From Alphaproteobacteria bacterium (GTDB lineage: Bacteria; Pseudomonadota; Alphaproteobacteria; Puniceispirillales; Puniceispirillaceae), in the NCBI GenBank assembly GCA_016780775.1, contig JADHLI010000005.1:1-64000 (forward strand): DNA of 64,000 nt. The letters are read 5' to 3'. The position numbers and the translations under genes were made by a program. Shown here in pieces: positions 36,516 to 45,067 of the stretch. The notes beneath the pieces are model-generated. The model made no database searches. It was given only the letters and a program-made list of their open reading frames with translations, and had not been told where the DNA came from. Within the stretch, counting starts at the first letter, position 1. Every line of letters starts with the position of its first letter.

Positions 36516-39406
36516 TAAGATACCTTTTTTCTGTCCTCACGCGCTGGTTTTAGCAAACGTGCCAAATAAGATCCGGTATGCGAGCCATCAACTTCTGCGA
36601 CCTTCTCTGGCGTACCAGCTGCAACAATTTCACCGCCGCCATCGCCGCCTTCTGGCCCAAGATCAATAATCCAATCCGCAGTTTTAATCACATCCAGATT
36701 ATGTTCAATCACAATGACCGTATTACCAGCTTCGACTAGCTCATGCAAAACTTCTAGTAGTTTAGCGATGTCAGCAAAATGCAGACCTGTGGTAGGCTCA
36801 TCCAGAATATAGACTGTACGCCCTGTTGCGCGCTTCGATAATTCCTTGGATAGTTTCACCCTCTGGGCTTCCCCGCCTGATAGGGTGGTAGCTTGCTGGC
36901 CGATGCGCACATAGCCCAAACCGACCCGCAACATAGTTTGCAACTTGTCACGAATAGACGGCACAGCTTTGAAAAAGCTGACACCTTCTTCAACGGTCAT
37001 ATCAAGAACATCTGCTACGGATTTGCCGCGCCATAATATTTCCAAAGTTTCACGATTATACCTACGTCCCTTACAGCTATCGCAAGTAACATAGACATCT
37101 GGCAGAAAATGCATCTCGATTTTAATCACGCCATCACCTTGGCAAGCCTCACACCTGCCACCTTTGACGTTAAAGCTGAAGCGGCCCGGCGTATAGCCGC
37201 GCGATTTAGCTTCTGGCAGGCCAGCGAACCATTCGCGTATGGGGGTAAAAGCTCCTGTATAGGTAGCTGGATTAGAGCGCGGTGTACGACCAATTGGTGA
37301 CTGATCGATATCTACCACCTTATCAAGCAGCTCTATGCCCTCGATTTGTGTATGCGGGGCAGGTATTTCACGGCTTTTATGTAACCGCCGCGATAAGGCT
37401 TTCCACAAGGTTTCTAGAATAAGCGTAGATTTACCGCCGCCGGATACGCCAGTGATACAGGTCAGTATACCTAGCGGAATTTCTGCATTTACAGATTTCA
37501 GATTATTGCCGCTTGCCCCTTTGACCTTAAGGCTACGTTTTTTATCAAACTTCCGACGTTTTGCTGGAACAGCTATCTCTTTTGCCCCACTTAAATATTG
37601 CCCTGTCAGAGATGCCGGATTGGCCAGAATAACTGATAATACACCCTCTGCTACCACCGTGCCGCCATGCACCCCAGCTCCTGGACCCATATCCACCACA
37701 TAATCAGCCGCCCGTATTGCATCTTCGTCATGTTCGACCACCAGCACGGTATTGCCGAGGTCACGAAGACGCGTCAACGTCGCCAGCAAGCGGTCATTGT
37801 CACGCTGATGCAGGCCGATTGACGGCTCATCTAGAACATATAATACGCCAGTTAGCCCGGAGCCAATTTGTGAGGCAAGACGTATCCGCTGAGACTCGCC
37901 CCCCGAAAGTGTGCCTGAATTTCGTGACAGGTTCAGATAGCGCAACCCAACATTTGCCAAAAATCCTAGCCGTTCATTAATTTCTTTTAGAATGCGTGAG
38001 GCGATTTCTTGGTCTGTTGCAGATAATTTTGCCTCAAGATCAGTAAACCAGACAACTGCATCACCTATTGAAAGCGCAGATATATCAGATATATCCATAC
38101 CCTCTATCTTTACCGCTAATGCTTCTGATTTCAGCCGCTTACCTTTACAATCCTCACAAGGCTGGATAGCGCGGAACTGGTCAAGCTCATCACGCACCCA
38201 GTTTGAATCTGTCTCGATAAAGCGGCGGCTTAAATTGGGAATAATTCCCTCAAATGGTTTGGATGTCTTATAAGAGCGCAAGCCATCATCATAGACCATT
38301 TGTACCGCTTCATTTTCGCTACCATAAAGTAAAACCTGCTGAAATTTTCTATCAAGGTCGCGAAACGGTACATCTATCGAAAAGCCGTAATGCCGAGCAA
38401 GGCTCTTTAGCGTTTGCAGATAATATTTGGACGTTGTTTTTGCCCATGGTGCAAGCGCCCCGCCGCGCAGAGATAAATCAGTGTCTGGAACAATTAGCTG
38501 CTCTTCAAAATGCGAAGACACCCCCAAACCATCGCAAGAAGCACAAGCCCCGAACGGATTGTTAAAAGAAAATAAACGCGGCTCCACCTCATCAATGGTA
38601 AAACCTGAGACAGGACAGGCAAAACGTGCAGAAAATACACTACGCTGACCAGATTTAGCATCATCTGCAAAGGTCAACCCATCTGCTAGTTCTAGCGCGG
38701 TTTCCAGCGAATCAGCTAATCTTGTTGCAAGCGTTTCCTGTTCTTTTTTAATAACCAGCCGGTCCACAACAATCTCAATGTCATGCTTTTTCTTTTTATC
38801 TAGGGCAGGCGGGTTATCAAGCTCATAAAACTCGCCATCAATGCGCGCCCGACCAAATCCCTTCTGAAGCCATGTGGCCATTTCCTTGCGATATTCCCCT
38901 TTGCGCCCGCGTATCACAGGAGCCAGTAGATAAAGGCGCGTACCTTCTTCCATGCCTAAAATAATATCTACCATCTGGCTGACAGTTTGCGAGGTAATCG
39001 GCAAGCCTGTTGCGGGTGAATAGGGGACTCCAACGCGTGCCCACAACAACCGCATATAGTCATAAATTTCAGTCACAGTACCAACCGTTGAGCGGGGATT
39101 GCGCGATGTGGTTTTCTGTTCGATGGAAATCGCCGGAGACAAGCCTTCGATAAGATCAACATCTGGCTTTTGCATCATTTCTAGAAACTGCCGGGCATAG
39201 GCAGAAAGTGATTCGACATATCGGCGCTGGCCTTCAGCATAAATTGTATCAAAAGCAAGGCTAGATTTACCTGAGCCTGAAAGCCCGGTGATCACCACCA
39301 GACTATCGCGCGGCAGGTCCACATTTACATTCCGCAGATTATGTTCACGTGCGCCACGAACGCTGATATGGCGGGTAGCTTGGTCAAACCCTGTCTTTTT
39401 CGTCAT
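36515..39406 (-). CDS. uvrA: Excinuclease ABC subunit A
   Basis: UvrA is the damage-sensing ATPase of nucleotide excision repair. The 963 residues hold two ABC modules: Walker [10 protein letters not shown] near the N-terminus and GVSGGGKST in the second half, each followed by an LSGGE signature. The second zinc module (CEAC and [10 protein letters not shown]) is intact. The first reads CPVSGFTI, so one cysteine of the usual CxxC is serine, as I recall for alphaproteobacterial UvrA. I start at ATG 39406; the frame has a TTG six bases earlier. It is divergent from ssb. Confidence 0.96.
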
Positions 39407-43673: not shown

Positions 43674-43749
43674 GGGCGGTTAGCTCAGTTGGTAGAGCAA
43701 GTGACTTTTAATCACTGGGTCACAGGTTCGAATCCTGTACCGCTCACCA
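43674..43749 (+). tRNA. tRNA-Lys (anticodon TTT)
   Basis: A 76-nt cloverleaf has acceptor stem GGGCGGT/ACCGCTC, discriminator A and encoded CCA, T-loop TTCGAAT and anticodon loop CTTTTAA. The 3' 48 bases are duplicated at 44611, so the gene is the intact side of an apparent attachment site. Confidence 0.96.
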
Positions 43750-43751
43750 TT
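43702..43751 (+). repeat. 50-bp direct repeat, tRNA-Lys side (candidate attachment site)
   Basis: From TGACTTTTAATC in the anticodon arm through the CCA end plus TT, 50 bases are identical to 44611-44660. Tyrosine recombinases commonly use the 3' half of tRNA genes as attB and rebuild it on integration. Confidence 0.85.
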
Positions 43752-43753
43752 TT

Positions 43754-43836
43754 AAGGGGCAAGTGAGATGCTTGGTGACGTTTCCTGTGAAGGCAGTTGA
43801 CGTTAACCTTAAACTCACTTGCCCCTTTCGTTTTTT
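43754..43836 (+). terminator. Long-loop terminator after tRNA-Lys
   Basis: A perfect 14-bp inverted repeat, AAGGGGCAAGTGAG with CTCACTTGCCCCTT, encloses a 46-base loop and is followed by TTTTTT at 43831-43836. It lies just inside the segment between the two tRNA repeats. Confidence 0.7.
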
Positions 43837-43901
43837 GTCAAGTGTTTTCAAGCCATTTAGTGCACCAATATAACATCAAGAAGTTAACAAAAAGGTTAAC
43901 T

Positions 43902-44270
43902 TTACTTCTTAATAGGAACAACGTAACTAGCGGGATATTCTCTGTGCTTGTCTGTTATTGCATCTGTGATACCAAAATCAAGGAAAACAGCACTAGCTAC
44001 AATTTTACCTCCCATGCTACTAGGGACTGAGGCAATTGATGTTCTGCCATCGTCAGTCTTGCAGTTTAGTTGAAGGTTATCATCACTTCTTCTAATCATT
44101 GGGGCGCTCGGTATAGAGGCCTCAATAGACATCCGTTTATTTGTTATTTGACAAGTCCCTGAGCTGCCATCACTAAATGATATTGCCATTGGAACAAAAG
44201 CATCATTAGTTATAGAGGCACAGGAAGATAAAGCTAGGCCACACATTGCTGCAATTATGTATTTATTCAT
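43902..44270 (-). CDS. Small lipoprotein of unknown function inside the tRNA-Lys repeat segment
   Basis: The 122 residues have a signal peptide with lipobox LSSC (Cys17). The mature part contains SDGSSGTCQITNK and a conserved-looking C-terminal block GGKIVASAVFLDFGITDAITD with KHREYP, reminiscent of small envelope lipoproteins found in many marine gammaproteobacteria; no function is known to me. A GGAG lies 8-9 bases before the ATG, so it is probably expressed. It is the only gene between the two 50-bp repeats, is on the opposite strand to the tRNA, and looks like cargo of a shrunken mobile element. Confidence 0.75.
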   Translation of the reverse strand: MNKYIIAAMCGLALSSCASITNDAFVPMAISFSDGSSGTCQITNKRMSIEASIPSAPMIRRSDDNLQLNCKTDDGRTSIASVPSSMGGKIVASAVFLDFGITDAITDKHREYPASYVVPIKK

Positions 44271-44610
44271 GATAAAAACTCCATTTCTATGATTTGAGTT
44301 TCAAACATATTTCGCAATACTTCAAGCGGTTAACAAATACATCTTCGCGGTTTTAGTAATTTCATTTGGGATTAAATCCACCTGGTTCATTAATAGAATT
44401 TATGCACAGGGAAAACTCACAGTAGAACCTGAAGTGTAACCCTGCGAACCAATGAACAATCCCTCTACACCATGACTGTGCAGGGCAGGGGTAAATCATT
44501 GGAATCTTGCTAAATGCCTAGCATTATGATACCATCTAAGTGTCGTAGCTGTTGGCTAGATAAGTCACTTGCTACTAGGAATTTTGGGCAACGATTACTG
44601 GTCAGAACCT
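44271..44610. other. 340-bp gap inside the tRNA-Lys repeat segment, no gene seen
   Basis: No convincing open frame or RNA fold is visible. An 11-bp inverted copy of tRNA-Lys sequence (AGTCACTTGCT, 44563-44573) lies 37 bases before the second repeat; it may be chance. Confidence 0.5.
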
Positions 44611-44660
44611 TGACTTTTAATCACTGGGTCACAGGTTCGAATCCTGTACCGCTCACCATT
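44611..44660 (+). repeat. 50-bp direct repeat, distal copy (tRNA-Lys 3' ghost)
   Basis: This is a perfect copy of 43702-43751. It lacks the tRNA 5' half (the sequence before it is unrelated), so it is not a working tRNA. It marks the far end of a 909-bp unit. Confidence 0.9.
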
Positions 44661-44665
44661 ATTAG

Positions 44666-44705
44666 AGGTCTGATTTTAGGTACCCCCTGATTTCAGACCT
44701 TTTTT
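44666..44705 (+). terminator. Terminator after the distal tRNA ghost
   Basis: AGGTCTGA/TCAGACCT forms an 8-bp stem extended inward by further pairs and is followed by TTTTT. It is likely the ancestral tRNA-Lys terminator displaced by an insertion. Confidence 0.75.
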
Positions 44706-44793: not shown

Positions 44794-44845
44794 CTTTTGC
44801 TGCAATAATGTAATCTTTTGGGAGGAGAGGAGGGAGAACGGATGA

Positions 44846-45067
44846 TTACATCATTACAAACTGTCCAACACGATCAAGCGCAACAACTTTGCCATTGTTT
44901 AGGGAGAAACATGCATAATTTTCAGGTGCTTTCATCGTGTTTTTGATCTTATTAATAAGGTCATGAATCGGCGCTGAGCAAAACTGACGTTGAGATATCC
45001 AACTATCATAGGAACGAGACTGAAAGAAGGTAACGGTAACCAGTTCTTGTTCATTTCTTTGTGCCAT
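44846..45067 (-). CDS. Orphan 73-residue protein of unknown function
   Basis: The ATG has AAGGTTAGGAC just upstream and the gene is followed by a strong terminator, which supports real expression. The product starts MAQRNEQELVTVTFFQ and is soluble, with an apparent mixed alpha/beta pattern and no motif I recognise. It stands alone between the tRNA-Lys ghost and the ccm operon, so it may be a passenger of the same accessory patch. It could also be a lineage-specific core gene. Confidence 0.6.
   Translation of the reverse strand: MAQRNEQELVTVTFFQSRSYDSWISQRQFCSAPIHDLINKIKNTMKAPENYACFSLNNGKVVALDRVGQFVMM

Follow-up and report, generated by a model that had tools for sequence, protein, structure and literature searches.

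Several kinds of small integrated element with a bearing on tRNA genes have been described, and they are introduced here as far as excerpts of the respective papers portray them. CIMEs keep their att sites and have lost their integration and transfer genes; they are described as decayed ICEs or IMEs, and their accretion with integrase-bearing elements is also described (excerpts of PMC5704250). Cassettes of Ca. Actinomarinales are recognisable by a tRNA segment that they repeat (excerpts of PMC7771536), and in Ca. Methylopumilus repeats of the tRNA-Lys end stand before additive islands that range from 330 bp and one CDS upward (excerpts of PMC10872708). The same excerpts characterise tycheposons as tRNA-associated elements of 4-200 kbp with a tyrosine recombinase; together with VEIMEs they count among the integrative elements of ocean bacteria (PMC11389934, PMC10872708), and PICI-like phage satellites are named in the excerpted part of PMC11389934. 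A title-level search of the literature for islands of SAR116 and for elements that are tRNA-bounded or non-autonomous returned no title on the subject.

The locus described here lies in a window of 64,000 nucleotides, the whole stretch of DNA that was analysed, from a marine alphaproteobacterium. In this window a short unit bounded by direct repeats of the tRNA 3' part follows an intact tRNA-Lys gene, and its features are:

43674-43749, + strand: intact tRNA-Lys(TTT), found by ARAGORN and Rfam; it stands after coaD in relatives too
43702-43751, + strand: copy 1 of the direct repeat (attL-like), which spans the anticodon arm to the CCA end and the next TT and matches copy 2 at 100%
43754-43827, + strand: hairpin 3' of copy 1, on the element side, with a 14-bp outer stem
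43902-44270, - strand: lipoprotein gene of 122 aa, antisense to tRNA-Lys, seen as an ORF with homologs
44562-44573, - strand: 12-mer matching the tRNA-Lys anticodon arm (nt 23-34) in inverted orientation, E 0.021
44611-44660, + strand: direct repeat copy 2 (attR-like), which aligns with the empty site of genome G005
44664-44702, + strand: native tRNA-Lys terminator hairpin, now stranded 3' of copy 2; G005 has a similar one after its single tRNA
44846-45067, - strand: p73, a 73-aa gene, the first beyond the site and a marker of the far flank

Nucleotides 29-76 of the tRNA plus TT recur over 50 nt with zero mismatches, and similarity between the two copies extends to 58 nt at 95%; an exact repeat of this kind is not due to chance. 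The spacer measures 859 bp and the total inserted length 909 bp. Rfam scores the tRNA at 74 bits, its sole match at E<=1 between 43400 and 45300, and thus recognises no other structured RNA in the insert at that threshold. Three ORFs of at least 50 aa touch the spacer, namely the 122-aa frame, one of 77 aa that partially overlaps it on the opposite strand, and one of 58 aa that overlaps repeat copy 2; none is of integrase size, and the lipoprotein gene is the only convincing cargo. The hairpin after copy 1 folds at -40 kcal/mol (z -5.8) and that after copy 2 at -21.7 kcal/mol (z -5.4). Neither is listed by a consensus terminator scan, whose one terminator-like site lies elsewhere; the loops or inner stems of both are longer than the scan rule permits. 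The stem arms of the copy-1 hairpin contain GCAAGTGA, which corresponds to tRNA nt 24-31, and its complement. A first-pass annotation made from the sequence alone had reported a perfect 50-bp repeat, a hairpin after each copy, and a spacer with one lipoprotein gene and no integrase. Re-alignment found the repeat to be exact, both hairpins stand out from background, and the ORF list together with the integrase-query search described below agrees with the gene content.

The perfect identity of the copies would also fit a tandem duplication of tRNA-Lys in which the second 5' half decayed and the lipoprotein gene was inserted independently, and a displaced copy in G006 whose similarity to the tRNA (94%) already starts at nt 9 points the same way. 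This origin was rejected because there is no 5' half: when the 28 nt before copy 2 are aligned to the tRNA 5' half, 231 of 831 windows of the insert score equally well or better, so that none is detectable, as had been claimed from the sequence alone. The repeat also begins abruptly at the anticodon arm, the DNA after copy 2 matches an empty site, and displaced pieces that start inside the tRNA recur at tRNA-Asn, which together make tandem duplication very improbable.

The empty site is found in G005, a member of the same genus, where a single tRNA-Lys leads directly into ATTATTA, the terminator and p73, just as copy 2 does here; the alignment of copy 2 and its far-side DNA with this site reaches 77% over 252 columns. 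It follows that 909 bp were inserted and that the native 3' end, now displaced, survives as copy 2. One copy of tRNA-Lys occupies the site in G001, G002, G004, G005 and G007. In G004 a different stretch of ~0.5 kb precedes p73, and G006 carries a different insert of 2.25 kb at tRNA-Lys, to which G007 seems to be the empty counterpart. The two-copy arrangement of the window occurs in none of the seven same-genus genomes, six of which are informative (G003, 76% complete, shows no tRNA-Lys). The order coaD-tRNA-Lys is kept in relatives, preceded by ssb-gyrA where the contig reaches that far, and p73 follows tRNA-Lys at 0.1-2.6 kb in G004, G005, G001, G014, G031 and G044, with other ORFs between them in some of these six. 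Conserved flanks of this kind bear on whether two places might have been joined in assembly through the 50-bp repeat, an idea that the division of the 2.21-Mb host genome into 44 contigs and the ending of some relatives' contigs at tRNA pieces would favour. The flanks are nevertheless those expected, coaD on one side and p73-ccmI on the other, in the order of G004 and G005, and an artefact is barely conceivable.

Of the hallmarks of a tRNA-integrated element of the tyrosine-recombinase type, the locus displays a second, direct copy of the tRNA 3' part at its far end while the tRNA itself stays intact, and a relative in which the far-side DNA comes right after a single tRNA; an integrase within the element is absent, so that the unit is not an autonomous element. 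The first-pass annotation had proposed an integration scar, to be checked by seeking a one-copy site in related genomes and to be doubted if relatives shared both copies or if a 5' half could be traced. G005 provides that site, and the search for the two adverse outcomes turned up neither among the genus-mates nor before copy 2. Its suggestion of a young or conserved site holds as to youth only insofar as close relatives lack the arrangement; the perfect identity of the copies, on which it had drawn, gives no date. Further out, an inverted repeat seen by eye at the 3' end of p73 (44808-44860; GTAATC...GATTAC, with GTAACC...GGTTAC as its G001 counterpart) encloses a purine-rich GGGAGGAGAGGAGGGAGAA stretch and appears by eye to be kept in the compared genus-mates with p73; it is possibly a structured RNA or a terminator.

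All 29 tRNA genes of the host genome (Rfam model) were compared with their own surroundings, usually 2-3 kb of flank and less at contig ends, and, neighbouring look-alike tRNA genes aside, tRNA-Lys is the only one with a long duplicate of its end nearby. The genome contains eight PF00589 matches, none of them at tRNA-Lys. It also harbours other probable integrated elements. One of ~7.8 kb at tRNA-Ser(TGA) (L162 1126-8983; G000:C2 ~63625-71482, mostly just past the end of the window) encodes a paralog of the lipoprotein, an HK97-type capsid protein, an HTH_36/RepC-like replication protein and a 439-aa tyrosine integrase. The paralog sits on the tRNA side, the far boundary is marked by 14 nt that match the 3' end of tRNA-Ser, a short match (E 0.005), and the whole looks like a phage satellite or a reduced prophage. 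Elsewhere, the 3' piece of a tRNA that by eye is tRNA-Arg (G000:C36 ~37693-37740; L155 7694-7740) stands displaced, with no whole tRNA in the 15-kb stretch around it, and lies ~0.35 kb from a broken integrase fragment with one in-frame stop (C36:37153-37353); it is likely another integration remnant. Two similar integrases with open frames of ~390 aa (L220 in G000:C37 and L221 in G000:C14) stand ~0.7 kb from tRNA-Gly(TCC) and tRNA-Arg(ACG), and these loci are probable autonomous islands.

The 122-aa protein has a lipobox-like LSSC (by eye), and homologs occur in 12 of 136 genomes of the order, its own included. The gene is 87% identical in DNA to its homolog in G006, against a background of 72% for gyrA, 68% for coaD and 69% for thiM, with dN 0.042, dS 0.61 and dN/dS 0.07. 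Comparison with G130 gives dN/dS 0.06, and the remaining pairs, in which dS is saturated, give pN/pS 0.09-0.20. The low dN/dS and the excess of identity over the 68-72% background mean that the gene is held by purifying selection and has spread laterally; the G006 homolog carries an in-frame stop and is thus dispensable there. Searches of Pfam (E<=1), PHROGs, NCBIfam and PADLOC (E<=0.1) assign the protein to no family, and tblastn against phage records yields no match at E<=0.01; two IMG/VR contigs carry relatives at 56-58%.

When 12 homolog regions (11 cellular, one viral) were compared with 59 tRNA sequences, a tRNA or tRNA piece was found near the homolog in six and none in the other six. 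The six comprise the window (Lys), its own paralog (Ser), G029 (Asn), G035 and G081, where tRNA-Val-like pieces adjoin, and G006, where a Lys piece lies 1.1 kb away and an integrase-like fragment adjoins at 26.5 bits, just below the 27.1 cut-off. Together with the paralog in the tRNA-Ser element and the relatives on IMG/VR contigs, such neighbours tie the gene family to integrating elements; the six regions that have none speak against this. Near the weakest homologs, those of G096 and G102, a scan for whole tRNAs only found no whole tRNA. In G035:C35 (L147 7999-8481) the tRNA-Val piece (nt 22-75, 98%) is directly 5' of the homolog, and a 100-aa DUF5681-like protein (below cut-off) that by eye resembles a phage small terminase adjoins.

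Structure prediction from the single sequence was useless (pLDDT 38). A three-sequence model (pLDDT 68) folds into a small beta structure without a match at E<=0.001 in the PDB or a viral structure library, the best viral match being an unnamed 123-aa protein at E 1.1e-3 and rmsd 12.9, and no function is therefore claimed from the fold. The lipoprotein probably changes the cell surface, for instance against other phages; a surface role such as superinfection exclusion, which is reported of Ltp, a phage lipoprotein (excerpts of PMC3952083), is a guess from the phage company that it keeps.

Units comparable to that of the window recur in relatives. The survey covered 61 genomes of the family, searched with tRNA-Lys and tRNA-Asn as the only two tRNAs, and a unit was defined by both boundaries lying on one contig within 3 kb; counts are minima, since fragmented assemblies hide further units. 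At least 16 were measured, the window's included. Start-to-start distances are 909 (window), 2254, 915, 952, 844, 1136 and 2669 bp at tRNA-Lys, among the matches listed, and 920, 930, 931, 2788, 2011, 1258, 1989, 933 and 1116 bp at tRNA-Asn, where 2669 (G017) and 1116 (G035) are spacings between two 5' pieces. Eight of the 16, in six groups by homology, fall within 844-952 bp among the matches listed. Left out were Lys pieces without a partner in G002, G009 and G033 plus a 27-nt piece in G007, and ten Asn pieces (G005, G007, G013, G021, G028, G044, two in G047, G052 and G054). Both polarities occur, with displaced 3' pieces downstream, as in the window, or displaced 5' pieces upstream.

The closest counterpart in cargo is in G029, of another genus, where nt 31-75 of tRNA-Asn (45 nt) recur without mismatch 920 bp downstream and the repeats enclose a lipoprotein gene of 77% identity. 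The two inserts align significantly over this gene only, which is oppositely oriented relative to the tRNA, and no other unit has ends in common with the window's beyond it. The units of G032 and G041 have common ends (72% and 83%) and different middles. Other cargo includes DUF2061 in G041, a Gly-zipper protein with a lipoprotein-like start in G035, and DUF3764, which recurs in the G010/G011 units (above cut-off in G011) and is below cut-off in G037. Outside the lipoprotein gene the window's insert has no match in 136 genomes of the order, and so leads to no parent element among them. These small inserts look like a recurring route of small-scale gene gain in the group.

Longer cases at tRNA-Lys measure 8.8 kb (G012) and ~40 kb (G014) and contain phage-like genes by eye. 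Both (G014:C1 384614-424558, L185-L187; G012, L188) are bounded by a 5' tRNA-Lys piece and a full tRNA-Lys, with integrase-like sequence beside the former and lysin-like ORFs beside the latter, again by eye. Four IMG/VR contigs (L156, L158, L159 and L161) hold nt 24/29-65 of the window's tRNA-Lys, probably as attP sites of tRNA-Lys-using phages, and two of them, L156 and L158, have a likely integrase ORF (script motif) within ~2 kb of this segment. In G036:C26 (L126) a 279-aa ORF with a Cas9-like start (by eye) lies on the reverse strand just 3' of tRNA-Lys.

Many units contain further short copies of the anticodon arm. In 17 units among the matches listed (the 16 and one from G011 bounded by a 20-nt match), 45 matches of at least 9 nt are to the cognate tRNA and 10 to the non-cognate one, and 40 of the 45 lie inside tRNA nt 18-47. 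Thinning homologous units to 14 leaves 38 and 9, and 69 kb of neighbouring DNA, a control that is mostly coding and so unlike the units in kind, contains 19 and 22. The signal is uneven: G029 alone contributes nine, and seven of the 17, the window's included, have none or one. In the G029 unit (L145 6126-7000) the nine copies, of 9-13 nt and in both orientations, flank the lipoprotein gene. We read such copies as putative extra core-type integrase sites. The alternative, that they are relics of older att copies, would predict the T arm to be included equally often. The single match in the window's insert, the 12-mer at 44562-44573, is not a significant enrichment by count (P 0.31); the cognate-copy enrichment in related units lends it weight as a candidate core-type site.

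How a unit may come to lack an integrase is suggested by G010, a member of a third genus, where two units stand in a row after tRNA-Asn, the first of 0.93 kb and the second of 2.79 kb, each closed by a tRNA piece. The longer unit encodes a 322-aa tyrosine integrase (PF00589, E 1e-11). The shorter matches integrase codons 1-27 (56%, E 2e-4), as does the homologous G011 unit (52%, E 0.002), and so seems to keep 27 integrase codons; over its rightmost 93 bp it shares 89% identity with the longer unit's right end. In G017 the integrase reads as two ORFs, and the shorter G027 shares stretches with G017. Eleven integrase queries, of which some nine count as distinct and informative (L223 duplicates the integrase at tRNA-Ser, and L225 is a longest frame that is probably not an integrase), find no trace in the window's insert at E up to 0.5, and integrase loss is here argued by analogy.

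The reading that we favour, and hold to be probable, is that the window contains a CIME-like unit that was inserted site-specifically, lost its integrase and other genes and kept the lipoprotein as useful; the apparent integrase loss in the related G010/G011 unit inclines us to such an integrase-deletion derivative. Judged from the anatomy of the locus, as are the direction of insertion and the recombinase, a small element would have entered tRNA-Lys by a site-specific crossover in its anticodon arm, most likely by means of a tyrosine recombinase. Its own identical 3' part and terminator would have replaced those of the tRNA, which stays whole because the element supplies an identical 3' part, and the old 3' end would have been pushed 909 bp downstream with the native terminator. 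The parent would have been a phage-, satellite- or island-type element whose integrase and other genes were then lost, the lipoprotein gene being retained because of its usefulness, probably through a change to the cell surface. The first-pass annotation had left open whether the unit was decayed, mobilised in trans or satellite-like: we lean to an integrase-deletion derivative of this CIME-like kind with functional cargo.

Mobilisation in trans deserves separate weighing. MITEs depend on helpers, and the ~0.9-kb format could comparably be a non-autonomous cassette, composed of two att repeats, recombinase-binding sites and one cargo gene, that the integrases of related elements would move in trans or in tandem. 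The narrow size class spans two tRNA targets and several genera among the matches listed, common ends with different middles are seen in G032 and G041, and one mini unit forms a tandem with an integrase-bearing element whose right end is similar. Cargo recurs as well, the lipoprotein at Lys and Asn and DUF3764 as noted, and the units as a set are enriched for cognate arm copies. Against this, no identical unit is found at two places among the matches listed, the window and G029 units share the gene only and in opposite orientation, the host's PF00589 matches avoid tRNA-Lys, the window's insert is not enriched for arm copies, and the clustering of sizes may be a mere remainder after deletion. 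We consider a trans-moved cassette unlikely. Equally doubtful is the broader proposal that SAR116-type bacteria host integrase-less, ~0.9-kb single-gene cassettes that would be moved in trans, with the anticodon arm as crossover and the arm copies as recombinase-binding sites; if true, there would be an integron-like cassette traffic on tRNA genes, dealing in small, often envelope-associated proteins.

The locus is a well-delimited case, below one kilobase and with the empty site present in a relative, of a gene gained at a tRNA, and it is linked to a series in other relatives that runs from integrase-bearing elements to one-gene units. Two questions thereby become testable, how integrated elements can shrink without losing useful cargo and whether units at tRNA genes that lack an integrase remain mobile, and the recurring cargo leads to a phage-associated, uncharacterised lipoprotein family of interest for effects on phage infection.

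Tycheposons are reportedly the subject of Hackl 2023. The window's unit, at 0.9 kb and without a recombinase, lies outside the size range and lacks the recombinase that excerpts of PMC10872708 give for them. The phage satellites named in excerpts of PMC11389934 find their likeness in the host's own tRNA-Ser element, with its capsid gene, replication-like protein, integrase and lipoprotein paralog near the tRNA, whereas the tRNA-Lys unit itself holds no phage gene, its one lipoprotein being without a PHROGs match at E<=0.1. With the tRNA cassettes of additive islands, as excerpted (PMC7771536, PMC10872708), it has in common its small size, its place at a tRNA gene of streamlined aquatic bacteria and its partial-tRNA direct repeats. 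It differs by standing alone as a unit whose empty site is seen, by a ~0.9-kb size that recurs in relatives, by the appearance of the same cargo at different tRNAs, and by the internal cognate arm copies of many units. Like CIMEs it retains attL and attR and is devoid of recombination genes, presumably by loss, and the tandem with an integrase-bearing element, present in G010 and absent from the window, resembles the accretions described in excerpts of PMC5704250; unlike them it is below 1 kb, has one gene, and shows no visible conjugation gene or ICE/IME parent. Collectively, tRNA-repeat cassettes and CIMEs are already known, the ~0.9-kb recurrence and the internal cognate arm copies less so, and the tRNA-Lys unit is a variant of these cassettes and CIMEs, with one gene, less than 1 kb, and a size and cargo that recur across tRNA targets.
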